A stretch of DNA of 64,000 nucleotides, taken from NCBI GenBank assembly GCA_947630135.1, contig CANRGH010000002.1, forward strand, positions 1 to 64,000, written 5' to 3'. The notes below the pieces were generated by a model that saw only the letters and a program-made list of their open reading frames with translations, was not told the origin of the DNA and made no database searches. Shown here in pieces: positions 53,775 through 63,352 of the stretch. A program made the position numbers and the translations under genes. How positions within the stretch are numbered: position 1 is the stretch's first letter; each line of letters begins with the position of its first letter. The DNA comes from an uncultured Monoglobus sp. Lineage in GTDB: Bacteria > Bacillota > Clostridia > Monoglobales > Monoglobaceae.

Positions 53775-54023
53775 ATGGAGCAAAATCGTGTCGCCCTGAT
53801 CGGGATTATCGTTGAGGATCTGTCCGTGACAGACAGGATCAACGAGGTCATCCATGAGTACAATTCATACATAGTCGGCAGGATGGGCATTCCCTACCGC
53901 AGCCGCGGAGTTGCGATAATCAGTCTGGTGATCGACGCGCCCGGGAATGTTATTTCCGGCCTTTCCGGCAGGCTGGGCATGATCGAGAATGTGCAGGTTA
54001 AAGCGCAGTATACCAAAATTTAA
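53775..54023 (+). CDS. TM1266-type iron-only hydrogenase system regulator
   Basis: 82 residues with an ACT/NikR-C-like alpha/beta pattern: VALIGIIVEDLSVTDRINEV, then GRMGIPYRSRGVAIISLVID and a C-terminal SGLSGRLGMIENVQVK. This is the small protein family repeatedly found beside [FeFe]-hydrogenase maturation genes and predicted to be a regulator. The start ATG at 53775 has RBS GGGAGG. hydG begins 21 bases after its stop, so the two are co-expressed. It has no separate DNA-binding domain, so how it acts is unclear. Confidence 0.85.
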   Translation: MEQNRVALIGIIVEDLSVTDRINEVIHEYNSYIVGRMGIPYRSRGVAIISLVIDAPGNVISGLSGRLGMIENVQVKAQYTKI

Positions 54024-54044: not shown

Positions 54045-55478
54045 ATGGAAAAATCGTATAAGTATGACGTGAAATCCCCCAAAGCGGAGGAATTTATCAA
54101 CGATGAGGAAATCAAGGCGACCTTAAAATACGCCGAGGAAAACAAAAATAACCGCGAGCTTATCGAATCGATAATCGAGAAGGCGCGGGAGTATAAGGGC
54201 CTCAGTCACCGCGAGGCGGCTGTGCTTCTCGACTGCGAGCTTGACGATCTTAACGAGAAAATGTTCGCCTTGGCTAAGGAAATAAAAGAAAAAATATACG
54301 GTAGGCGCATAGTGCTTTTCGCGCCGCTGTATCTCTCGAATTACTGCGTGAACGGCTGCGTTTACTGCCCGTATCACGCGAAAAACAAGAACATCTGCCG
54401 CAAAAAGCTCACTCAGGACGATGTGCGCCGCGAGACGATCGCGCTTCAGGACATGGGACACAAGCGTCTCGCTCTTGAGGCGGGCGAGGATCCGGTCAAC
54501 AATCCGCTTGAGTATATTTTAGAGTGCATAAACACGGTCTACGGCATAAAGCACAAGAACGGCGCGATCCGCCGCGTGAACGTGAATATCGCCGCGACCA
54601 CGGTTGAGAATTACAAGCGCCTCAAGGACGCGGGCATAGGAACATACATATTGTTCCAGGAGACTTACAATAAGGAAAATTACCTGAGCCTTCACCCCGC
54701 GGGCCCCAAGCACGACTACGCCTACCATACCGAGGCGATGGACAGGGCTATGACCGCGGGCATCGACGATGTCGGCTGCGGAGTGCTGTTCGGCCTGAAC
54801 CTTTACCGCTATGACTTAGCGGGCCTTCTGATGCACGCCGAGCATCTTGAGGCCGCGTTCGGAGTAGGCCCCCACACCATAAGCGTGCCGAGGATCTGTC
54901 CCGCCGACGACATTGACGTGAACGACTTTTCAAACGCGGTGTCCGACGAGATATTCCACAAGATAATCGCGGTGATAAGGATCGCCGTGCCGTACACGGG
55001 AATGATAATCTCCACTCGCGAGAGCGAAAAGAGCCGCGAAAGGGCGCTTGAGCTCGGTATCTCGCAGATAAGCGGCGGCTCGCGCACCAGCGTCGGAGGC
55101 TACGCCGACGAGGAGCCCGAGGAGGAAAACTCGGCGCAGTTCGACACCAGCGACCGCAGGACTCTCGACGAGGTAATAAACTGGCTCGTTTCGCTCGGCT
55201 ATATTCCGAGCTTCTGCACTGCCTGCTACCGCGAGGGCAGAACGGGCGACCGCTTTATGCCGCTCGCCAAGTCGGGCGCGATACAGAACTGCTGCCAGCC
55301 CAACGCGATTATCACGCTCAAGGAATACCTTGAGGACTACGCCTCGCCCGAAACCAAACTAAACGGCGAAAGGCTGATAGAGGAGGAAATAAAAAAGATC
55401 CCCAACCCCAAGGTATACAACACCACGAAGGAATACCTGAAAAAAATCGAACAGGGCGCCCGCGATTTCAGGTTTTAA
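54045..55478 (+). CDS. hydG: [FeFe] hydrogenase H-cluster radical SAM maturase HydG
   Basis: Radical SAM tyrosine lyase that makes CO and cyanide ligands for the H-cluster. 477 residues, full length. Seen: the SAM-cluster motif CVNGCVYC (Cys101, Cys105, Cys108) followed by PYHAKN, EAGEDP, the barrel segments, and the C-terminal cluster motif CTACYREGRTGDRF ... CCQPN (Cys-x2-Cys-x22-Cys) that holds the auxiliary cluster with the dangler iron. RBS AAAGGAGAT supports the start. HydE, HydF and the hydrogenase itself are not in this window. The organism should therefore make H2 by fermentation or take it up elsewhere in its genome. Confidence 0.97.
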   Translation: MEKSYKYDVKSPKAEEFINDEEIKATLKYAEENKNNRELIESIIEKAREYKGLSHREAAVLLDCELDDLNEKMFALAKEIKEKIYGRRIVLFAPLYLSNYCVNGCVYCPYHAKNKNICRKKLTQDDVRRETIALQDMGHKRLALEAGEDPVNNPLEYILECINTVYGIKHKNGAIRRVNVNIAATTVENYKRLKDAGIGTYILFQETYNKENYLSLHPAGPKHDYAYHTEAMDRAMTAGIDDVGCGVLFGLNLYRYDLAGLLMHAEHLEAAFGVGPHTISVPRICPADDIDVNDFSNAVSDEIFHKIIAVIRIAVPYTGMIISTRESEKSRERALELGISQISGGSRTSVGGYADEEPEEENSAQFDTSDRRTLDEVINWLVSLGYIPSFCTACYREGRTGDRFMPLAKSGAIQNCCQPNAIITLKEYLEDYASPETKLNGERLIEEEIKKIPNPKVYNTTKEYLKKIEQGARDFRF

Positions 55479-55518: not shown

Positions 55519-56514
55519 TTATTTTAAATATTCGTTAAAGAAGCTTTCGAGCTTGTCGAACGGGATGGCGTTTTTGCCGCCGCCGTCATAAAGATCGGTG
55601 TGGACGGCGTCGGGGATTATCAGCAGCTCCTTGTTGTCGGGGCATGGATTTCCGTTTATCATATCCGCGTATGCGTCGCGGCTGAAATAGCACGAGTGCG
55701 CCTTTTCGCCGTGCATAACAAGCGCCGCGCCGCGTATCTCGCAGCTGTATTTCAGTATCGGCTGATTGATGAACGACATGCAGCCGATCTTGTTCCAGCC
55801 GCCGTTAGAGTTCAGCGAGCGTTTGTGATAGCCGCGCCCGGTCTTGTAATAATCATAATAATCCTTGACGAAGAACGGCGCGTCCTCCGGCAGCGGGTCA
55901 ACAACACCGCCGCCCAATTCATAGCTCCCGTTTTTATAGTCGGTCACGCGCTGCGCGTTCAGCGCCCTTTTGAGTTCGTAACGCTTTTCCTCGCTGTTGT
56001 CGGCGTCAAAATAGCCGTTGGCGTTGACCCTAGTCATGTCATACATGGTCGAGGCGACGGTCGCCTTGATCCTCGTGTCGAGCGCCGCGGCGTTCAGCGC
56101 CATGCCGCCCCAGCCGCAGATGCCTATTATGCCGATCCTTTCCGGATCGACGTCGTCATTGACCGAAAGAAAATCAACAGCGGCCTGAAAATCCTCGGTG
56201 TTGATGTCGGGCGAGGCCATATACCGCGGCTGTCCGCCGCTCTCGCCCGTAAATGACGGGTCAAAGGCTATGGTCAGAAATCCGCGCTCCGCCATTGTCT
56301 GGGCGTATAAGCCCGACGCCTGCTCCTTGACCGCGCCGAACGGGCCGCACACCGCGATCGCCGCGAGCTTTCCGCTGTGGCCTTTTGGCTTGTATAAGTC
56401 CGCCGCGAGGGTTATTCCGTAGCGGTTGCGGAAGGTTACTTTTTTGTGATCGACCTTTTTGCTTTTGGGGAAGGTCTTGTCCCATTCGCTTGTGAGTTTC
56501 AATGTCTCTGCCAT
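55519..56514 (-). CDS. Alpha/beta hydrolase with Cys-type nucleophile elbow
   Basis: 331 residues from the ATG at 56514, which has RBS AAAGGAA; a longer frame to 56574 has none. Alpha/beta-hydrolase fold related to the YcjY/dienelactone-hydrolase group. Seen: the N-terminal TFRNRYGITLAADLYKP, VCGPFGAVKEQASG, PSFTGESGG, and the elbow IGICGWGGMALNAA where Cys takes the place of Ser, as in dienelactone hydrolases. The C-terminal PDAVHTDLYDGG supplies the His. Soluble, no signal. The substrate is unknown: esters or small peptides. Own promoter TTGATA-17-TATAAT lies upstream. Confidence 0.85.
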   Translation of the reverse strand: MAETLKLTSEWDKTFPKSKKVDHKKVTFRNRYGITLAADLYKPKGHSGKLAAIAVCGPFGAVKEQASGLYAQTMAERGFLTIAFDPSFTGESGGQPRYMASPDINTEDFQAAVDFLSVNDDVDPERIGIIGICGWGGMALNAAALDTRIKATVASTMYDMTRVNANGYFDADNSEEKRYELKRALNAQRVTDYKNGSYELGGGVVDPLPEDAPFFVKDYYDYYKTGRGYHKRSLNSNGGWNKIGCMSFINQPILKYSCEIRGAALVMHGEKAHSCYFSRDAYADMINGNPCPDNKELLIIPDAVHTDLYDGGGKNAIPFDKLESFFNEYLK

Positions 56515-56559
56515 GATAACACATTCCTTTCCGTGATATTTTTGGAATTTTATGTAATT

Positions 56560-56588
56560 ATTATACCGTATCAATTCAAAAATATCAA
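56560..56588 (-). promoter_or_regulatory. Promoter of the alpha/beta hydrolase gene
   Basis: Minus strand TTGATA (56588-56583), 17-base spacer, TATAAT (56565-56560), about 45 bases before the start codon. Confidence 0.7.
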
Positions 56589-56622: not shown

Positions 56623-56949
56623 TTATGACAAAGACTTATAGCCCTCGCCCCACGCCTTCATCGCGTCCAAAATCGGTTTCAGCGTCGCGCCGAGCTCCGA
56701 CAGGGCATATTCCACCCGCGGCGGGACCTCCGCGTAAACGGTGCGCGTGATCAGCCCGTCGGCTTCCATTTGACGCAGATTGTCGGTCAAAACCTTTTGG
56801 CTGATGCCTTCTAAGTTTTTATGAAGCTCGTTGAACCGCCACGGGCGCTCGAGCAGATTTCGTATGATAAGCAGCTTCCATTTGCTGCCTATCAATTGTA
56901 CGGTCACGGCGACCGGACATTCCGGTATAAGCTCATCCTTGGTTTTCAT
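56623..56949 (-). CDS. HxlR-family transcriptional regulator
   Basis: 108 residues from the ATG at 56949, RBS GGAGGAAACAG. MarR-like winged helix of the HxlR group: the early Cys in ECPVAVTVQLIGSKWKLLIIRNLL, WRFNELHKNLEGISQKVLTDNLRQ (recognition helix) and the wing VPPRVEYALSELG. Such proteins often sense redox or reactive electrophiles through the N-terminal Cys and usually control a divergent gene; here that is the Cys-rich peptide operon. The frame extends upstream to 57006 but without an RBS. Its own promoter overlaps a TGAATGTTACATTCA palindrome. The 3' end has a near-identical copy at 59728-59754. Confidence 0.93.
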   Translation of the reverse strand: MKTKDELIPECPVAVTVQLIGSKWKLLIIRNLLERPWRFNELHKNLEGISQKVLTDNLRQMEADGLITRTVYAEVPPRVEYALSELGATLKPILDAMKAWGEGYKSLS

Positions 56950-56975: not shown

Positions 56976-57020
56976 TGAATGTTACATTCAGATTATAACA
57001 TAACATTCAATAAAACGCAA
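56976..57020 (-). promoter_or_regulatory. HxlR promoter with palindromic operator
   Basis: Minus strand TTGCGT (57020-57015), 17 bases, TATAAT (56997-56992). The 15-bp perfect palindrome TGAATGTTACATTCA (56976-56990) lies right after the -10 box, and an extra half site TAACATTCA (57001-57009) lies between the boxes. This fits autorepression by the HxlR protein. Confidence 0.65.
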
Positions 57021-57073
57021 TAGAAAAAATTTTTTATTCAAAAGGCCCGCAAACACGCGATAGTTACAAAATG

Positions 57074-57104
57074 GTAAGTACCGCACAAAAAAGTGCGTAC
57101 TTGC
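57074..57104 (+). promoter_or_regulatory. Inverted repeat upstream of the Cys-rich peptide operon
   Basis: GTAAGTACCGCAC (57074-57086), AAAAAA, GTGCGTACTTGC (57093-57104). The GTAAGTAC/GTACTTGC arms look like the operator type seen before genes controlled by HxlR or other MarR-like factors. It could also fold as an RNA stem. I could not place convincing promoter boxes for the operon. Confidence 0.5.
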
Positions 57105-57171: not shown

Positions 57172-57357
57172 ATGGCACTTTCAAATCTTTCCGACTGGAC
57201 GGATAAAAAGGCGGCTTCGGCCTGCGGCGCCGCCTGCGGAGCGGCTGACAAGCCCGAGGAAAAGCCAGCGGCCTGCGGCAGTGCATGCGGCGCGGCTGAT
57301 AAGCCCGAAGAAAAACCCGCGGCTTGCGGCAGCGCATGCGGAGCGGCGGATAAATAA
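57172..57357 (+). CDS. ACGX-repeat cysteine-rich RiPP precursor peptide
   Basis: 61 residues: a 16-residue leader (MALSNLSDWTDKKAAS), then a 17-residue unit ACGxACGAADKPEEKPA repeated from residues 17, 34 and 51, the last cut short. Six Cys at 18, 22, 35, 39, 52 and 56, each in ACG. It is followed by a radical SAM/SPASM gene, as in the system I remember as ACGX-repeat peptide, so it is probably modified at Cys or neighbouring residues (for example thioether links) and cut. RBS AAGGAGG is 6 bases from the ATG; a start at 57118 lacks such a site. No transporter or protease is adjacent, so it may act inside the cell or use distant export. A metal-binding peptide is the alternative. Confidence 0.88.
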   Translation: MALSNLSDWTDKKAASACGAACGAADKPEEKPAACGSACGAADKPEEKPAACGSACGAADK

Positions 57358-57379
57358 CTTGTCCGTTCTTAAAATCATC

Positions 57380-57403
57380 TCCGACGGGAGCGATCCCGTC
57401 GGA
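57380..57403 (+). promoter_or_regulatory. Perfect GNRA-capped hairpin between precursor and maturase
   Basis: TCCGACGGGA, GCGA tetraloop, TCCCGTCGGA: 10 perfect base pairs, with further pairing AAATC/GATTT outside a small internal loop. It lacks a U-tract, so it is more likely an mRNA stabiliser or attenuator than a full terminator. It sits 22 bases after the peptide stop and would let the peptide be made in excess over the enzyme. Confidence 0.7.
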
Positions 57404-57453
57404 AGATTTCGATCATTATTCGGTAAAACGATTATAGATAGAGAGGCAACAAT

Positions 57454-58485
57454 ATGAAACAATATTTTTCTTTTCAGTTGCATATCACCGATGAGTGCGA
57501 TCAGCGGTGCAAGCATTGCTATATTTTTTCAGGCGGCAGCGGCAAGCCGCTTAGCTCAATGACATGGGAGCAAATGAATGACGCGTTTTATAACTGTCTT
57601 GATTTTTGCGAGATGTATGACAGGCAGCCGTATTTTTATATCACGGGCGGCGACCCGATCCTGCATCCCGATTTTTGGCGGCTGCTGAAGCTGATGCGCG
57701 AGCGTGATATTCCGTTTACGGTCATGGGAAATCCGTTTCACCTCGACGACGAGGTGTGCCGAAAGCTGAGATCATATGGCTGTGAGAAATATCAGCTTTC
57801 CCTTGACGGGCTTCGCGAGACGCACGATTGGTTCAGGAAACCCGGATCGTTCGACTGCACGATCGAAAAGATCGGCTGCGTCAACCGCGCGGGTATCCGC
57901 AGCGTTGTAATGACCACGGTTTCGGCCGATAATATGGCGGAGGTGCCGGGTATTATTGACGCTGTTGTAAAAGCCGGAGTAAATGTGTTCGCCTTCTCGC
58001 GCTATGTTCCGAGCGGCGGCGAGCTTGACGCGAACATGTCTCCGCGGGATTATCGCGCTCTTTTAGAGACATGCGACAGAAAATTCAAGGAATACGAAGC
58101 CGCGGGCTGCGGGACTTATTTCAACAAAAAAGACCACCTCTGGACGCTTTACGAATACGAAACCGGGGAATTTAAAATTCCCGGGGCGGCAAAGGAGGGA
58201 ATGATTTACGGCGGCTGCAACTGCGGTAACTGCCACATAACGATTTTGCCGACAGGCGACATTTATGGCTGCCGTCGGGCGGCGAACAGCAAGGTCGGCA
58301 ATGTGTTTGAGGATAGGCTTGCGGACGTTTGGGTATGCGAAATGGAGCAGTACCGCGAATATGATAAATTTGAGAAGTGCGGAAAATGCGAACTGCTGCC
58401 CTACTGCCGCGGCTGCCCCGCGGTCGCCAAGGGCACAAGCGGCAGCTTTTACGCCGCCGACCCGCAATGCTGGAAAGAGTTGTAA
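57454..58485 (+). CDS. Radical SAM/SPASM peptide maturase for the ACGX peptide
   Basis: 343 residues. N-terminal radical SAM core with Cys15-x3-Cys19-x2-Cys22 (ITDECDQRCKHCY) and the GGDPILHPDF segment. The C-terminal SPASM domain has Cys motifs CNCGNCHITILPTGDIYGC and CGKCELLPYCRGCPAVAKG ... PQC for auxiliary [4Fe-4S] clusters. Enzymes of this type make thioether or C-C links on ribosomal peptides. RBS AGAGAGGC supports the start. It lies 96 bases after the precursor gene, separated by a strong hairpin, and ahead of two redox-enzyme genes. The exact modification cannot be read from sequence. Confidence 0.93.
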   Translation: MKQYFSFQLHITDECDQRCKHCYIFSGGSGKPLSSMTWEQMNDAFYNCLDFCEMYDRQPYFYITGGDPILHPDFWRLLKLMRERDIPFTVMGNPFHLDDEVCRKLRSYGCEKYQLSLDGLRETHDWFRKPGSFDCTIEKIGCVNRAGIRSVVMTTVSADNMAEVPGIIDAVVKAGVNVFAFSRYVPSGGELDANMSPRDYRALLETCDRKFKEYEAAGCGTYFNKKDHLWTLYEYETGEFKIPGAAKEGMIYGGCNCGNCHITILPTGDIYGCRRAANSKVGNVFEDRLADVWVCEMEQYREYDKFEKCGKCELLPYCRGCPAVAKGTSGSFYAADPQCWKEL

Positions 58486-58506
58486 TTTGTTTAAGGATGT
58501 GATATT

Positions 58507-59085
58507 ATGGAACTGATAAACGCGATAAAGGCGCGGCGGTCTGTTCGCAAATATACGGACATGCAAATCCCGCGCGCGGATCTGGAAAAAATAATCGAGG
58601 CGGGAACATACGCCTCAAACGCGGGCAGCGGTCAGCGGAGCATGATCGTCGGAATACATAACGCGGATATGGTTGAAAAGCTCGGCAGAATGAATATGGC
58701 AAAGTTTGACCGAAGCCGCCTTATAGGCTCGTATGTTTCCAAAGAGCAGCCGAGCGTTATTGACGACCCGAATATAAAAAGCGGCTTTTACGGCGCGCCC
58801 TCATTGTGCATTGTGTTCGCGCAGAAAAATTTCATGTTCGGTATTTCGGACGCGTTCTGCTGTGCGGAGACCATGCTTATGGAGGCTTTTGACCTCGGCA
58901 TATCATCATGTATTGTCTCGCGCGCCGAGGAAACCTTTGACAGCGAGATCGGCGCGGCGCTGTTAAAGGAGTGGGGAGTGCCGGAGAACTATATCGCGCG
59001 CTGCTTCGTAACTCTCGGCTATTGTGACGGCGAATATCCGAAAGCAAAGCCGCGCCGCGCGGGCAGAAGCAAAATAATCGAATGA
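58507..59085 (+). CDS. Nitroreductase-family flavoprotein in the RiPP operon
   Basis: 192 residues. FMN-binding nitroreductase fold: NAIKARRSVRKYTDMQIP at the N-terminus, YASNAGSGQRSMIVGIHN, GISDAFCCAETMLMEAFDLG and WGVPENYIARCFVTLGYCDG. Simple family members reduce nitro or quinone compounds; others act as peptide dehydrogenases in RiPP pathways. Starts 21 bases after the maturase stop with RBS AAGGATG and overlaps the next gene. From context it may be a redox step in peptide maturation or part of an HxlR-controlled electrophile response. I cannot choose between the two. Confidence 0.88.
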   Translation: MELINAIKARRSVRKYTDMQIPRADLEKIIEAGTYASNAGSGQRSMIVGIHNADMVEKLGRMNMAKFDRSRLIGSYVSKEQPSVIDDPNIKSGFYGAPSLCIVFAQKNFMFGISDAFCCAETMLMEAFDLGISSCIVSRAEETFDSEIGAALLKEWGVPENYIARCFVTLGYCDGEYPKAKPRRAGRSKIIE

Positions 59086-59717
59086 CGGAGGGAAATATAT
59101 TGGACGCACAAACTTGTTTAAAAAAATTGGAATATGTCGGAGTGCTTGCGTTCGCGACAGTTGACGAAAACGGCGCGCCGCAGATACGCAATATAAGCGC
59201 CATACACTATGAGTCGGACGGCATGTATTTTTTTACCGCCAAGGGAAAGGCGTTTTGCAGAGAGCTGATGACGGACGGGCGCGTTCAGGTTCTCGGATAT
59301 ACTAAATATAAAGAGATGATACGCCTGTCGGCAAAAGCCACACCCGCACCCGAGGCGGAGCAAAAGAAACTGATCGACACCATATTTGATGAACAGCCGT
59401 ATCTCGCGAACGTATATCCGGGCGGCACGCGTTATCTCGCGGGGATCGTGTTTGAGATAAAGGACGCGGAAATAGAATACTTCAACCTCGGAGTCAGCCC
59501 GATTTTCCGGGAAAAATATGTTATCGGAAACGGTCGGATAACCTTTAAGGGATACGCGATCACGGATGCTTGCATAGGCTGCGGAAAATGCGCGGAAAGC
59601 TGCCCGCAAAGGTGCATAACCCCGGGAGATCCGTATCAAATACAGCAAGAGCACTGCCTGCACTGCGGCAACTGTTATGAGGCTTGCCCGGTGCGCGCAG
59701 TTGAAAAGAGAGGATAA
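59082..59717 (+). CDS. PNPOx-like flavin domain fused to a 2x[4Fe-4S] ferredoxin
   Basis: Up to 211 residues. The N-terminal split-barrel domain of the pyridoxamine 5'-phosphate oxidase type (EYVGVLAFATVDENGAPQIR, FTAKGKAFCRELMTDGRVQV) should bind flavin. The C-terminal ferredoxin part has CIGCGKCAESCPQRC and CLHCGNCYEACP for two clusters. A likely electron carrier or small reductase, which could supply electrons to the radical SAM enzyme or the nitroreductase. The ATG at 59082 overlaps the previous stop (ATGA), but a TTG at 59100 has a good RBS (GGAGGG, 7 bases) and is the more probable start, giving 205 residues. Parts of a second copy remain at 61098-61148. Confidence 0.85.
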   Translation: MTEGNILDAQTCLKKLEYVGVLAFATVDENGAPQIRNISAIHYESDGMYFFTAKGKAFCRELMTDGRVQVLGYTKYKEMIRLSAKATPAPEAEQKKLIDTIFDEQPYLANVYPGGTRYLAGIVFEIKDAEIEYFNLGVSPIFREKYVIGNGRITFKGYAITDACIGCGKCAESCPQRCITPGDPYQIQQEHCLHCGNCYEACPVRAVEKRG

Positions 59718-59728: not shown

Positions 59729-59754
59729 TAGCTCTCGCCCCACGCCTTCATCGC
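59728..59754 (-). pseudogene. 3'-end fragment of an HxlR gene
   Basis: 27 bases match the end of the HxlR gene (56638-56664) with one mismatch and encode the same C-terminal AMKAWGE residues on the minus strand. Nothing else of the gene remains. Confidence 0.65.
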
Positions 59755-59770
59755 AATATTTTAAATAATG

Positions 59771-59801
59771 TATTGTAATTAGTGATACAATATGATATAA
59801 T
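59771..59801 (+). promoter_or_regulatory. Promoter and operator of the RelB/RelE-type pair
   Basis: TTGTAA (59773-59778), 17 bases, TATAAT (59796-59801). An inverted repeat, TATTGTA (59771-59777) and TACAATA (59786-59792), overlaps the -35 box and spacer. This fits autorepression by the ribbon-helix-helix antitoxin. Confidence 0.75.
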
Positions 59802-59827
59802 CAATGACAGAAAGGAAGGTGCTTATT

Positions 59828-60124
59828 ATGGCAACAAAAAGCGCGAATGTGACGGCTCGCATACAACCCGAGATCAAAAGGCAGGCAGAGGCGGTTTTAA
59901 ACAGGATCGGATTGCCGGTTTCGGTTCTGATTGATACATTATACAGACAAATCATTATGACCGGCGGAGTTCCGTATTCCCTTGCTGTGCCGAAGCTGTC
60001 TGCGAGAGACGGCTTGACCGACGAGCAGTTTAACGCAATGATGGAAAATGGATACGATCAGGCGAATACCGGCGAAGGATTGCCCATTGACGAGGCTTTT
60101 TCCAAAATCCGCGAGGGAATTTAA
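59828..60124 (+). CDS. RelB/DinJ-family antitoxin
   Basis: 98 residues from the ATG at 59828, RBS GAAAGGAAGG; a frame start at 59804 lies before the RBS. The N-terminal ribbon-helix-helix MATKSANVTARIQPEIKRQA continues into VLNRIGLPVSVLIDTLYRQI, typical of RelB/DinJ. The flexible C-terminal half (LTDEQFNAMMENGYDQANTG) should wrap the toxin. It should bind the inverted repeat in its own promoter. The toxin gene starts 2 bases after its stop. Confidence 0.92.
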   Translation: MATKSANVTARIQPEIKRQAEAVLNRIGLPVSVLIDTLYRQIIMTGGVPYSLAVPKLSARDGLTDEQFNAMMENGYDQANTGEGLPIDEAFSKIREGI

Positions 60125-60126
60125 GC

Positions 60127-60468
60127 ATGCGGTATGAAGTGAAATTGACCGCGCAGGCGATCGGGCAAATTGAAGAAACTGTGCAATATATATCCAAAAT
60201 CATGTCAGAGCCGGAAATTGCTCTAAAATGGGCGAATATTCTTCAATCTGAAATCGGAAAGTTGAGTTTCATGCCTTTAAAATATGCTCTCACTGAGGAA
60301 GAACCGTGGCGTGAAAAAGGAATTCGTAAAATGCCCGTTAAGAATTTTCTTGTTTATTATTTGATTGACAATGAAAATAAGACTGTATGGGTCATGGCGG
60401 TAATTTACGGACGGAGAGATCAGAGCGCGGCATTGACGGATATACAGCAAATTGATACGGAAAGCTAA
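60127..60468 (+). CDS. RelE/ParE-superfamily toxin
   Basis: 113 residues. Small alpha/beta toxin fold: YEVKLTAQAIGQIEETVQYI, the Trp/Ile-rich helix EIALKWANILQSEIGKL, then the C-terminal sheet RKMPVKNFLVYYLIDNENKTVWVMAVIYGRRDQ. Family members either cut mRNA at the ribosome (RelE) or poison gyrase (ParE). The target cannot be settled from sequence, though the VYGRRDQ-like end is common in the RelE/YoeB-like side. RBS GAGGGAA, 2-base gap to the antitoxin: a standard co-transcribed type II pair. Confidence 0.9.
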   Translation: MRYEVKLTAQAIGQIEETVQYISKIMSEPEIALKWANILQSEIGKLSFMPLKYALTEEEPWREKGIRKMPVKNFLVYYLIDNENKTVWVMAVIYGRRDQSAALTDIQQIDTES

Positions 60469-60493
60469 ATCAAGATTTGGAGATGAGTTATAT

Positions 60494-61087
60494 ATGGATG
60501 AACGGCTAAAGAAGCAGCTTAACTTTTCTTTGGAAATAGATAAGGAAAAAACCATTGTCAGACAGACGCATATATCGGGCAGCTCGCGCAAAGAAAATGA
60601 TGCAGAACACGCTTGGCATATGGCGATTATGGCGTATTTGCTGCGGGAATATGCTAACGAAGAGGTGGATATTACAAAAGTTATATTGATGTGCCTTATC
60701 CATGACATTGTGGAAATTGATGCCGGTGATACATATGCTTATGATGAAGAAGGTCTGAAATCTCAGAAATTAAGAGAGGAGCGGGCAAAAAATAGAATTT
60801 TTTCTCTGCTTCCCGAGGATCAAAAATCGGAAATGATCGCGCTGTTTGATGAGTTTGAGGACTGTCAGACGCCGGAAGCCGGATTTGCTCATGCAATGGA
60901 TAATTTGCAGCCGTTGATTTTAAACAACAGCAACAACGGCGGTGATTGGAAGGAACACAACGTATCGGCAGACGCGGTTTACAATCGGCAGAAAATGACG
61001 CGCCTTGGCTCGGAAAAATTGTTTGAAGTCGCGAATTTGATCATAAAAGAGAATGTCCGAAAAGGAAATTTGCGACAGGAAAAATAA
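60494..61087 (+). CDS. HD-domain hydrolase, YfbR/5'-deoxynucleotidase-like
   Basis: 197 residues from the ATG at 60494, RBS GGAGATGAG; an upstream frame start at 60452 would overlap the toxin. Metal-dependent HD phosphohydrolase: the first His in NDAEHAWHMAIMAYLL, the His-Asp pair in LIHDIVEIDAGDT, and a later Asp in AMDNLQPLILN. Close relatives remove phosphate from deoxynucleoside monophosphates; I infer that substrate only from fold. It lies 25 bases behind the toxin and may be carried as cargo of the same mobile or recombined segment. Confidence 0.85.
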   Translation: MDERLKKQLNFSLEIDKEKTIVRQTHISGSSRKENDAEHAWHMAIMAYLLREYANEEVDITKVILMCLIHDIVEIDAGDTYAYDEEGLKSQKLREERAKNRIFSLLPEDQKSEMIALFDEFEDCQTPEAGFAHAMDNLQPLILNNSNNGGDWKEHNVSADAVYNRQKMTRLGSEKLFEVANLIIKENVRKGNLRQEK

Positions 61088-61097
61088 AAATCCGGGC

Positions 61098-61148
61098 GCG
61101 GAAACAGAGTGTTTCAACCTCGGAGCCAACCCGGTTTTCAGTGAGAAA
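61098..61148 (+). pseudogene. Fragment of a second PNPOx/ferredoxin gene
   Basis: 41 of 51 bases match 59466-59516 of the intact gene without gaps, and the translation keeps the pattern AETECFNLGANPVFSEK against AEIEYFNLGVSPIFREK. The ferredoxin half is missing. The fragment runs straight into the right 26-bp repeat and the macrodomain start. Confidence 0.6.
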
Positions 61149-61170
61149 AGAGAGGATAATATGACGCAAA
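61145..61170 (+). repeat. 26-bp direct repeat, right copy
   Basis: Identical to 59703-59728. This copy is functional: it holds the RBS and the ATG (61161) of the macrodomain gene. Confidence 0.9.
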
Positions 61171-61940
61171 GTGAAAGACAGATTTATTTGATTGAGCGGC
61201 TTATCGCCGAGCAGCCGCGGTATAACGGTTTAGCGGTGCCGCGGGATGAAGCGGAACGGAAAAACCTGCTCCGCTCGCTTTTTAACGTCCGTATGCCTAA
61301 AGAGACCGACGAGGACTTTCTTAAAATTCAGGACGAATACCTGCGTGAGGAAACCGCGCGAAAGGGCGTGACCGACATTGCGGAGCTGACCCCCGTGAAG
61401 GACGGAATTTATCTGTGGCGGGGCGATATTACGACGCTGCGCTGCGGAGCGGTTGTGAACGCCGCCAACAGCGGCATGACCGGCTGTTATGTTCCGTGCC
61501 ACGCCTGCATTGACAACTGTATCCACACTTACGCCGGAGTGCAGCTCCGTCTCGAGTGCGCGCGGATCATTAATGAGCAGGGCTGCGAGGAGAAAACGGG
61601 CGGCGCGAAGATCACGCCCGCTTATAATCTGCCTTGCGAATACGTCATTCACACAGTGGGGCCGATAGTGCGCGGCGCGCTGACCAAAACGGACAAAAAT
61701 TTGCTCGCGTCATGCTACCGCTCGTGTCTTAATATCGCCGACAAAAACAGCGTGAAAAGCGTCGCGTTTTGCTGCATATCCACGGGCGAATTTCATTTTC
61801 CGAACGACAAGGCGGCGGAGATCGCGGTAAAGACCGTAAAGGAATATAAAGAGCGGACAGAAAGCGAAATTGAGGTGATATTTAATGTTTTCAAGAATGT
61901 CGATCACGAGATCTACCGGAGCTTACTCGGAAAATATTAA
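61161..61940 (+). CDS. Zinc-type macrodomain protein-ADP-ribose hydrolase
   Basis: 259 residues. Removes ADP-ribose from modified protein. Seen: the N-terminal helical extension of the Zn-macro group (AERKNLLRSLFNVRMPKETD, FLKIQDEYL), then the macro fold: LWRGDITTLRCGAVVNAANS, the loop GCYVPCHACIDNCIHTYAG whose Cys and His residues fit the catalytic zinc site, GGAKITPAYNLPCEYVIHTVGP, and AFCCISTGEFHFPND. I start at the ATG at 61161 with RBS AGAGAGGAT inside the direct repeat; a frame start at 61053 is in sequence overlapping the previous gene. Its end overlaps the sirtuin gene by 56 bases, so the pair is tightly coupled. Confidence 0.93.
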   Translation: MTQSERQIYLIERLIAEQPRYNGLAVPRDEAERKNLLRSLFNVRMPKETDEDFLKIQDEYLREETARKGVTDIAELTPVKDGIYLWRGDITTLRCGAVVNAANSGMTGCYVPCHACIDNCIHTYAGVQLRLECARIINEQGCEEKTGGAKITPAYNLPCEYVIHTVGPIVRGALTKTDKNLLASCYRSCLNIADKNSVKSVAFCCISTGEFHFPNDKAAEIAVKTVKEYKERTESEIEVIFNVFKNVDHEIYRSLLGKY

Positions 61941-62751
61941 GCGCCTGAAAAACGCGCTCGATGCCGCGGAAGCGGTCGTTATCGGCGCGGGCGCGGGACT
62001 TTCGACCGCGGCGGGCTTCACCTATTCGGGCGAGAGGTTCAAGAAATATTTTTCGGATTTTATAGAAAAATACGGCTTTTCCGATATGTATTCCGGCGGC
62101 TTTTATCGGTTTGAAACTCCCGAGGAGCGCTGGGCCTATTGGTCGCGATATATCTTCATAAACCGCTATGCCGACGCGCCGAAGCCTGTCTATGATAAGC
62201 TGTTTGAATTGGTGAAAGACAAGGATTATTTTGTGATCACAACAAATGTTGACCACTGTTTCCAAAAAACGGGATTTGATAAAAAGCGTCTGTTTTACAC
62301 GCAGGGCGATTACGGGCTTTTCCAATGCTCCGTGCCGTGCTGTGAGGAGACTTTTGACAATGAGGAAATCATACGCGAAATGGTTGACGCTCAAAAAAAT
62401 ATGCGCGTACCGTCCGGGCTGCTGCCCGTCTGTCCGCGCTGCGGCAGTCCGCTTGTGATGAATTTGCGCGCCGATGATAAATTCGTCGAGGACGAAGGCT
62501 GGCGCGAAGCGGCGAAGCGATATGAAAATTTCCTGCAAACTCGGCGGCAGCGGCGGGTCTTATACCTTGAGCTCGGAGTCGGCTTCAATACTCCCGTCAT
62601 CATTAAATACCCGTTTTGGCGCATGACGGCGCAAAACCCCAACGCGGTTTACGCATGCGTAAATTACGGAGAGGCCGCCTGCCCGACCGAAATTGAAAAA
62701 CGGTCGGTTTGTATTAACGGCGATATCGGTGATGTGCTCGAGAAACTGTGA
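61885..62751 (+). CDS. SirTM (class M sirtuin), probable protein ADP-ribosyltransferase
   Basis: 288 residues. NAD-dependent sirtuin fold: AVVIGAGAGLSTAAGFTYSG (NAD site), TTNVDHCFQKTGF in place of the common TQNxDxLH, YTQGDYG, and four Cys for zinc (CSVPC ... CPRCG). These deviations are those of the macrodomain-linked SirTM group, which transfers ADP-ribose to a lipoylated carrier protein rather than deacylating. Start 61885 has RBS GAGGTGA and lies inside the macrodomain gene. The usual partners (GcvH-like carrier and lipoate ligase LplA2) are absent on either side here, so the target must be encoded elsewhere or differ. Confidence 0.92.
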   Translation: MFSRMSITRSTGAYSENIKRLKNALDAAEAVVIGAGAGLSTAAGFTYSGERFKKYFSDFIEKYGFSDMYSGGFYRFETPEERWAYWSRYIFINRYADAPKPVYDKLFELVKDKDYFVITTNVDHCFQKTGFDKKRLFYTQGDYGLFQCSVPCCEETFDNEEIIREMVDAQKNMRVPSGLLPVCPRCGSPLVMNLRADDKFVEDEGWREAAKRYENFLQTRRQRRVLYLELGVGFNTPVIIKYPFWRMTAQNPNAVYACVNYGEAACPTEIEKRSVCINGDIGDVLEKL

Positions 62752-62781: not shown

Positions 62782-63330
62782 TCAGTTTTCGAGGACCTCG
62801 TCAAGCGAGCGCTTGGGAACGTTGATCACGTCGTTTTCGTCCTCGTAATATTTAACGCTGCCGTCCTTCATTTCGACCACGCGGCTCTCCTGCGCGGGAT
62901 AGCCCACGGCCAGCAGATACAGAACCTCGCGCTCGGTGCCGAGCATTTCCTTGATTGCCTTTTTGTCAATGGCGCCCAGCCAGCAGGTGGCAAGACCCAT
63001 TTCCTCGGCAAGCAGCATCATGGTGGTGACTGCCGCGCCCGCGTCGGGCTCAAAGCTGTTTTTAACGGCGGTGTCGCCGAGGATAGCTATATAGGTCAGG
63101 GGCCGTTCGTTCTCGGCGGGCTCCCACTCGGTGAGATAACCGGCCCATTTGGTGAGGGGATAAACCTCCGCGCCGTTTTCCATGATCGCGTATTTGATCG
63201 GCTGCATGTTCGCGCCGCTCGCGGCGTACCGGGCCGCGTCGATCAGCGTCTCGATATCCTTACGCGGAACGCGGGTTTGTTTGAATTTTCGGATACTTCT
63301 GCGGTTTTTGATCGCCTCGATAACTGTCAT
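62782..63330 (-). CDS. Nitroreductase-family protein
   Basis: 182 residues from the ATG at 63330; AAGGAGAT lies 9 bases upstream, whereas the ATG at 63339 would overlap that RBS. FMN-binding fold: IEAIKNRRSIRKFKQTRVP, YAASGANMQPIKYAIMENG, DAGAAVTTMMLLAEEMGLATCWLGAI and LLAVGYPAQE. Only distantly similar to the nitroreductase at 58507, so it is a separate subfamily. It follows the M24 peptidase with a 22-base gap and is probably co-transcribed with it. Substrate unknown. Confidence 0.9.
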   Translation of the reverse strand: MTVIEAIKNRRSIRKFKQTRVPRKDIETLIDAARYAASGANMQPIKYAIMENGAEVYPLTKWAGYLTEWEPAENERPLTYIAILGDTAVKNSFEPDAGAAVTTMMLLAEEMGLATCWLGAIDKKAIKEMLGTEREVLYLLAVGYPAQESRVVEMKDGSVKYYEDENDVINVPKRSLDEVLEN

Positions 63331-63352
63331 AAATAACATCTCCTTGTATATT

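Follow-up and report, generated by a model that had tools for sequence, protein, structure and literature searches.

What does a Cys-rich peptide do when it is encoded in one operon with a radical SAM maturase and redox enzymes? The question is raised by a locus in an uncultured gut Monoglobus sp. (assembly GCA_947630135.1), located on contig CANRGH010000002.1 within a 64,000-nucleotide stretch (positions 1 to 64,000, here the window) that is part of a 2.35-Mb genome, 99.5% complete, whose closest public relatives are uncultured Monoglobus of the "Lapin" metagenome series. The first-pass annotation had recognized here an ACGX-type ribosomally synthesized and posttranslationally modified peptide (RiPP) system with two extra redox enzymes, opposite an HxlR regulator. 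Our analyses reveal that the ACGX module is joined to a core of HxlR, PNPOx, macrodomain, and class M sirtuin (SirTM) genes that also exists alone, and the composition of the operon suggests a stress-response role of the peptide. The reading we prefer, at a probability of roughly 45%, is that of an HxlR-controlled thiol-stress unit in which an intracellular, partly cross-linked Cys peptide would act together with flavin/Fe-S reductases, possibly under a control layer of ADP-ribosylation.

Organization and conservation of the operon

The window features relevant to the operon are as follows.

56623..56949, minus strand: HxlR/DUF24-family regulator (PF01638, 1.5e-31)
56977..56989, no strand: palindrome GAATGTTACATTC in the HxlR promoter region, candidate autoregulatory site (conservation in divergent regions)
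57063..57103, plus strand: composite conserved promoter element GTTACAAAATGGTAAGTACCGCACAAAAAAGTGCGTACTTG, candidate HxlR operator (conservation)
57172..57357, plus strand: ACGX precursor peptide, 61 aa (TIGR04341, E=1.8e-16, 60.5 bits)
57454..58485, plus strand: rSAM_ACGX radical SAM/SPASM maturase, 343 aa (TIGR04340, 607.7 bits)
58507..59085, plus strand: FMN-type nitroreductase, 192 aa (PF00881, 5e-18)
59082..59717, plus strand: PNPOx-like flavin domain plus 2x[4Fe-4S] ferredoxin domain, here PNPOx-Fd (PF01243, Fer4)
59729..61143, plus strand: insert splitting the operon (relatives' gene order, junction alignment, domains)
61161..61940, plus strand: Zn-macrodomain, predicted protein-ADP-ribose hydrolase (PRK04143 family, 360 bits; cut-off, 272)
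61885..62751, plus strand: SirTM, predicted protein ADP-ribosyltransferase (5a3a, E=8.5e-72)

Profile scores and Pfam place all the genes named in the first-pass annotation where it had put them, packed together with HxlR on the opposite strand. The operon does not end at 59717, however, since the Zn-macrodomain and SirTM genes, which overlap, are also members. This pair, like the conserved promoter element and the Cys-X3-Asp/Glu pattern described below, had gone unnoticed in the first-pass annotation. We regard this anatomy as near certain. A chance arrangement is excluded because about 80 non-redundant loci show these genes, arranged in the same order.

In the close relatives L035 to L040 the order is uninterrupted, with the macrodomain directly after PNPOx-Fd. 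In the window, the Zn-macrodomain and SirTM lie 1.4 kb further downstream because a block consisting of a RelB/ParE-type toxin-antitoxin pair (59804-60468) and an HD_3 protein (60485-61087) was inserted at the PNPOx-Fd/macrodomain junction, about 27 bp of which is repeated on both sides according to the junction alignment. Repeats of sequence from the PNPOx-Fd 3′ end (55 nt, 80%) flank the insert, and a short stretch at about 59730-59755 resembles HxlR 3′-terminal sequence, which gives the insert the look of a leftover from a second cassette copy.

To survey the neighborhood, loci were collected from the GTDB contig collection, of which the 80 closest matches were kept (77 to 95% identical, so that this set is biased toward close matches), and from whole genomes in family-, class-, and phylum-level samples. 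Removal of loci with maturases ≥95% identical left 82 ACGX-type loci, 69 of them with complete upstream DNA and 56 with ≥5 kb downstream. Precursor homologues were present in 65/69 and a divergent HxlR gene in 60/69. Downstream, a nitroreductase or a quinone-oxidoreductase-type zinc dehydrogenase (ADH; hereafter QOR) was found in 55/56 loci, PNPOx-Fd in 45/56, and a macrodomain and/or SirTM in the same direction in 41/56. The first-pass annotation had left it to such a survey whether ACGX precursors and these redox genes co-occur or never do; they co-occur systematically with the ACGX pair, and the second outcome was not seen. Both redox enzymes are thus present in the window as annotated, but they are "extra" in no sense, being normal members of an ACGX neighborhood (55/56 and 45/56 loci); we therefore rejected the idea that they are peculiar to the window. 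In many relatives (L073, L093, L096, and L101, for example), a QOR-type dehydrogenase (PF08240/PF13602) and a ferredoxin-nitroreductase fusion of about 293 aa stand in for the nitroreductase or accompany it.

Association with SirTM extends beyond adjacency. Among the 391 genomes of the class sample, SirTM was detected in all 16 with an ACGX maturase above the cut-off versus 50/375 of the others, and by genus in 9/9 ACGX genera versus 35/210; the p-values calculated for these contrasts do not allow for kinship. The phylum sample contributed seven further ACGX genomes, of which five had SirTM (the matches in G734 and G646 being weak or broken). Loci with SirTM only often have the order HxlR-(PNPOx)-macrodomain-SirTM. 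Mapped onto the SirTM tree, the ACGX label switches at least 7 times when well-supported branches are counted and 11 times on the best tree, compared with 26 in shuffles. This pattern points to repeated gain or loss of the association, and the peptide module is thus an add-on, present nearly always in genomes with the SirTM core. One genome of the same genus, G012, illustrates such a loss: deletions have truncated the peptide gene at its 3′ end, erased the maturase gene entirely, and taken most of the nitroreductase gene.

Redox enzymes

A structural model of the nitroreductase matches the FMN nitroreductase 3ek3 (Z 20.6, 178 residues), a match that does not indicate a substrate. By alignment, PNPOx-Fd probably starts at TTG 59100, and its eight cluster Cys (two 4Fe-4S motifs) are conserved.

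The first-pass annotation had proposed that these partners might form an electron chain for the maturase. In such a scheme, PNPOx-Fd and the nitroreductase would supply the maturase clusters or perform a second oxidation of the peptide. A ferredoxin-type domain does adjoin the radical SAM enzyme, the maturase nearly always has a nitroreductase or QOR as its neighbor (55/56), and the nitroreductase was lost together with the maturase in G012. Against this, PNPOx-Fd is missing downstream in 11/56 loci, it occurs with SirTM in genomes that have no ACGX maturase, and anaerobes possess general ferredoxins and flavodoxins. Because PNPOx-Fd persists where the maturase is absent, both with HxlR in SirTM-only genomes and in G012, a dedicated maturase electron chain is unlikely as its main role, and as an explanation of the operon we consider it quite improbable.

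HxlR regulator and promoter elements

From its conserved start, the window HxlR comprises 108 aa; the open reading frame is longer, extending to 57006, but M20 of the long frame is conserved as the start in 77/78 homologues. A single Cys, residue 11, is conserved in 78/78. The best solved relative is HypR/YybR (4a5m), and the HxlR Cys aligns with its redox Cys14, a position occupied by Ser in 4a5n. With the HxlR fold and a conserved N-terminal Cys, the protein has the features of a HypR/YodB-type regulator, which agrees with the annotated redox-type regulator as far as sequence can tell. In Bacillus, a conserved N-terminal Cys allows HypR, YodB, and CatR to sense HOCl, quinones, and diamide, and hypO and yodC, the latter a nitroreductase gene, are among the genes under their control (PMC6943732). 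The window regulator shares with them the HxlR/DUF24 family, the position of the N-terminal redox Cys, and, probably, divergent control of a nitroreductase gene. It differs in having one Cys only, whereas HypR uses Cys14 plus a second Cys.

Promoter elements were sought in 66 non-redundant divergent regions, with shuffled sequences for comparison. The core GTGCGTACTT was found with ≤1 mismatch in 65/66 regions (61 exact; shuffled, 0.1 exact), mostly 69 to 83 nt upstream of the precursor start, within the consensus GTTACAAAAAGGTAAC...ATAAAAAAGTGCGTACTTG; the regions otherwise share little sequence. A pattern search with the 14-nt core gave one match in the genome. Many SirTM-only loci also have this core or a one-base variant of it, located next to the HxlR gene in several cases. 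The palindrome GAATGTTACATTC occurred with ≤1 mismatch in 28/66 and with ≤2 mismatches in 47/66 regions, compared with 0.0 and 0.8 in shuffled sequences. We infer that the conserved promoter element is a candidate operator of HxlR.

ACGX peptide and maturase

The annotated RiPP pair was borne out, the adjacent peptide and maturase scoring far above the curated cut-offs of TIGR04341 (28 bits) and TIGR04340 (400 bits), respectively. The window precursor consists of a MALSNL..W leader and three ACGxACGA..DK units with 6 Cys. In 85 distinct precursors, 523 CG-type Cys were each read with their surroundings: the residue at +4 was Asp or Glu in 305 (Asp in 289, Glu in 16), Cys in 193, and another residue in 25. 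When no second CG unit follows, 305/330 Cys stand in a Cys-X3-Asp/Glu arrangement, and a CGxACG doublet closes 70/85 precursors. The ranthipeptide maturase PapB introduces its cross-links at Cys-X3-Asp/Glu (PMC9413430), so that the ACGX precursors contain a ranthipeptide acceptor motif (Cys-Xn-Asp/Glu). A selenocysteine product, prompted by a secondary SbtM-like score of the maturase, was discarded; the precursors read use ordinary Cys codons, with no need for an in-frame TGA.

In the maturase, the CX3CX2C motif and the SPASM Cys are invariant across homologues. Its AF2 model (pLDDT 81.7) is closest in fold to CteB (5wgg; Z 25.2, 308 residues, 3.2 Å) and SkfB (6efn; Z 24.9), both thioether-forming enzymes, whose ranking is to be read as a tie because the SPASM part of the model is only moderate (blocks at pLDDT 52 to 73). 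With 72.3 bits against a cut-off of 340, the maturase falls outside the PapB family (NF047865), which is why we call it ranthipeptide-like and not a PapB member. The PapA/PapB system (PMC9413430) shares with the ACGX pair the repeated Cys-X3-Asp/Glu in the precursor and a SPASM maturase of the thioether-enzyme fold; it differs in that the ACGX maturase has no N-terminal recognition domain (RRE) and in that about a third of the ACGX Cys have another Cys at +4. Judging from these patterns, Cys-Asp/Glu thioether cross-links are likely in the mature peptide. A thiol/redox role for the peptide is plausible.

Two other uses of a Cys-rich peptide were considered. The mature product could be a metallothionein-like binder of metals or clusters, the operon then answering metal or cluster damage, as the 3 to 12 Cys per precursor in regular CGxACG doublets and the Fe-S proteins encoded in the operon might suggest. 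Yet most of these Cys have Asp or Glu at +4, so that cross-linking would consume the thiols, and His is nearly absent from the core (1 in 72 distinct precursors); we deem such a binder very unlikely. RiPP maturases often make antimicrobials, and the peptide could likewise be a secreted antimicrobial or signal. In the window, no exporter gene flanks the operon, in keeping with the first-pass annotation, and none recurs within 6 kb of it in relatives; nor does any exporter, peptidase, or immunity gene recur beside the about 80 loci, where control lies with a redox-type regulator shared with stress enzymes. Of all the explanations weighed here, secretion appears the least probable.

Some radical SAM proteins below the TIGR04340 cut-off (228 to 308 bits) were encoded in the absence of any ACGX-like peptide gene (L145 to L147, from f57 genomes, and L155 and L156). 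In L145 to L147, a gene for an about 200-aa protein comes next. These loci possibly represent a sister RiPP system. Among PADLOC models, the maturase gave a partial match of its radical SAM core to viperin models only (41 bits), and the other operon proteins had no match.

SirTM, Zn-macrodomain, and the target question

SpySirTM (5a3a) is the best solved relative of the window SirTM. The alignment to 5a3a shows HG replaced by QG and a match at each of N118, D120, Q137, and R192; the QG replacement together with catalytic N118, Q137, and R192 is diagnostic of the class, the residues being named in PMC4518038. Genetic linkage to a macrodomain of the same subclass is found in the window, and the same pair occurs in relatives. 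The macrodomain, with 8rsi, 5kiv, and 8rsl as the nearest solved structures, carries NAAN, the Cx4HxC zinc loop (CYVPCHAC), and the D-x3-H Asp/His dyad, i.e., the Zn-Macro motif set given in PMC11490716, and has an N-terminal extension of about 80 residues ahead of the macro core.

In the extended SirTM operon described in the literature, the target of the pair is lipoylated GcvH-L; flavin oxidoreductases are encoded close by, and the system has been linked to oxidative stress (PMC4518038, PMC11490716). GcvH-L is the only known SirTM target, those of other SirTM/Zn-Macro systems being unknown (PMC11490716). The operon studied here does not contain GcvH-L and LplA2, and neither GcvH (PF01597) nor a TIGR00545 lipoate ligase was found in the genome, which closes the known target route; lipoyl-GcvH was accordingly rejected as the SirTM target in this genome. 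With the window genome included, GcvH is missing in 19/23 ACGX genomes and the TIGR00545 ligase in 20/23. One clostridial locus, L229 (G409), has a gene with a GcvH domain about 1.1 kb upstream of SirTM, apparently a GcvH-linked SirTM outside the Lactobacillales and Staphylococcaceae.

The mature ACGX peptide might itself be the SirTM substrate, modified on the conserved Asp/Glu of CGA-x-D or on the linker. It would then be a ribosomal stand-in for the lipoyl-GcvH-L thiol carrier, with radical SAM thioethers and remaining thiols switched by ADP-ribosylation. We hold this specific proposal to be doubtful. More broadly, most clostridial SirTM genomes tested lack GcvH, and the conserved neighbors in this operon make up a list of candidate substrates (the ACGX peptide, the nitroreductase, and PNPOx-Fd) that may help identify targets of SirTM-type enzymes.

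Proposed role and its main rival

The thiol-stress reading draws on gene order, the promoter element, catalytic residues, the peptide pattern, and co-occurrence, all read from sequence, and its steps are put forward as a model. Oxidation or alkylation of the HxlR Cys11 thiol would switch on the divergent promoter. The SPASM maturase would then link Cys to the Asp or Glu four residues on, in a ranthipeptide-like thioether. In each CGxACG doublet, the first Cys, which has another Cys at +4, might remain a free thiol or be used differently. Lacking a nearby exporter or protease, the peptide is proposed to stay in the cell, where it could serve as a thiol-bearing redox carrier or scavenger. The nitroreductase (or QOR-type ADH) and PNPOx-Fd may be its flavin/Fe-S reductase partners or parallel electrophile reductases. 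SirTM would add and the Zn-macrodomain remove ADP-ribose on an acidic residue of an operon member, tuning its activity. The job of the operon would be akin to that proposed for lipoyl-GcvH-L and flavin oxidoreductases in staphylococci and streptococci, carried out with other parts.

Several observations weigh against this reading. SirTM is not adjacent to ACGX in three of the 16 genomes of the class sample (G325, G344, and G359), two ACGX genomes (G448 and G681) have no SirTM, and 50 sampled genomes carry SirTM and a macrodomain without ACGX. G012 retains HxlR, the promoter, PNPOx-Fd, the macrodomain, and SirTM despite having lost the peptide and maturase; together with the SirTM-only genomes, this indicates that SirTM has some use without the peptide. 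The Cys-Asp cross-link is deduced from spacing in a low-complexity peptide. Finally, 46/50 control genomes with SirTM and no ACGX also lack GcvH. Absence of GcvH therefore does not single out ACGX, and the notion that its loss marks ACGX genomes was dropped, the controls lacking GcvH as often; clostridial SirTMs would generally have another target, of which ACGX is at most one.

The strongest rival, which we rate as rather unlikely, is that HxlR simply gathers independent stress genes into a shared regulon, the peptide, the reductases, and the ADP-ribosylation pair being biochemically unlinked and having separate targets. The SirTM core does exist without ACGX, the downstream content varies (nitroreductase, ferredoxin-nitroreductase fusion, QOR, either or both), and a related promoter element is also present in SirTM-only loci. 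What speaks against it is the asymmetry of the dependence, ACGX almost never occurring without SirTM even where the two are unlinked (G325, G344, and G359), and the joint loss of peptide, maturase, and nitroreductase in G012.

Comparison with known systems

The ACGX families TIGR04340 and TIGR04341 describe a peptide-maturase pair only, whereas here the pair sits within an HxlR-flavin/Fe-S-ADP-ribosylation operon. Lactobacillales and Staphylococcaceae have an extended SirTM operon (GcvH-L, LplA2, Zn-Macro, SirTM, OYE, and LLM; PMC4518038, PMC11490716) that shares with it the Zn-macrodomain and SirTM with their catalytic residues, flavin oxidoreductases, a small carrier-like protein modified by a neighboring enzyme, and a link to thiol/redox stress. 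In place of GcvH-L/LplA2 there is a Cys-rich peptide with a radical SAM maturase, and in place of OYE/LLM a nitroreductase/QOR and PNPOx-ferredoxin, with HxlR. Our literature search, in a collection that omits most subscription papers and preprints, found no report of ACGX neighborhoods or chemistry and no papers joining HxlR with radical SAM, HxlR with a sirtuin plus macro domain, or a RiPP with a macrodomain. Every part is of a known kind; the combination of an orphan RiPP with SirTM/Zn-Macro, the regulator, and the candidate promoter element are unreported in the literature searched. The ACGX RiPPs, an orphan family common among gut Clostridia, gain from this operon a first functional context, a regulator, and a candidate operator, as well as a definite cross-link prediction.

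Neighboring genes

On the minus strand at 55519-56574, a Peptidase_S15-like alpha/beta hydrolase gene adjoins HxlR, a placement seen only in the closest relatives; homologues also lie near L074, L084, and L092. Beyond it, at 54045-55478, is a gene for HydG, the [FeFe]-hydrogenase maturase (917 bits), with a TM1266-type putative hydrogenase regulator upstream at about 53775-54023. At the other end, just past SirTM and on the opposite strand, a second small nitroreductase (PF00881) is encoded at 62782-63339 (minus strand), which is present also in L033 and L034.

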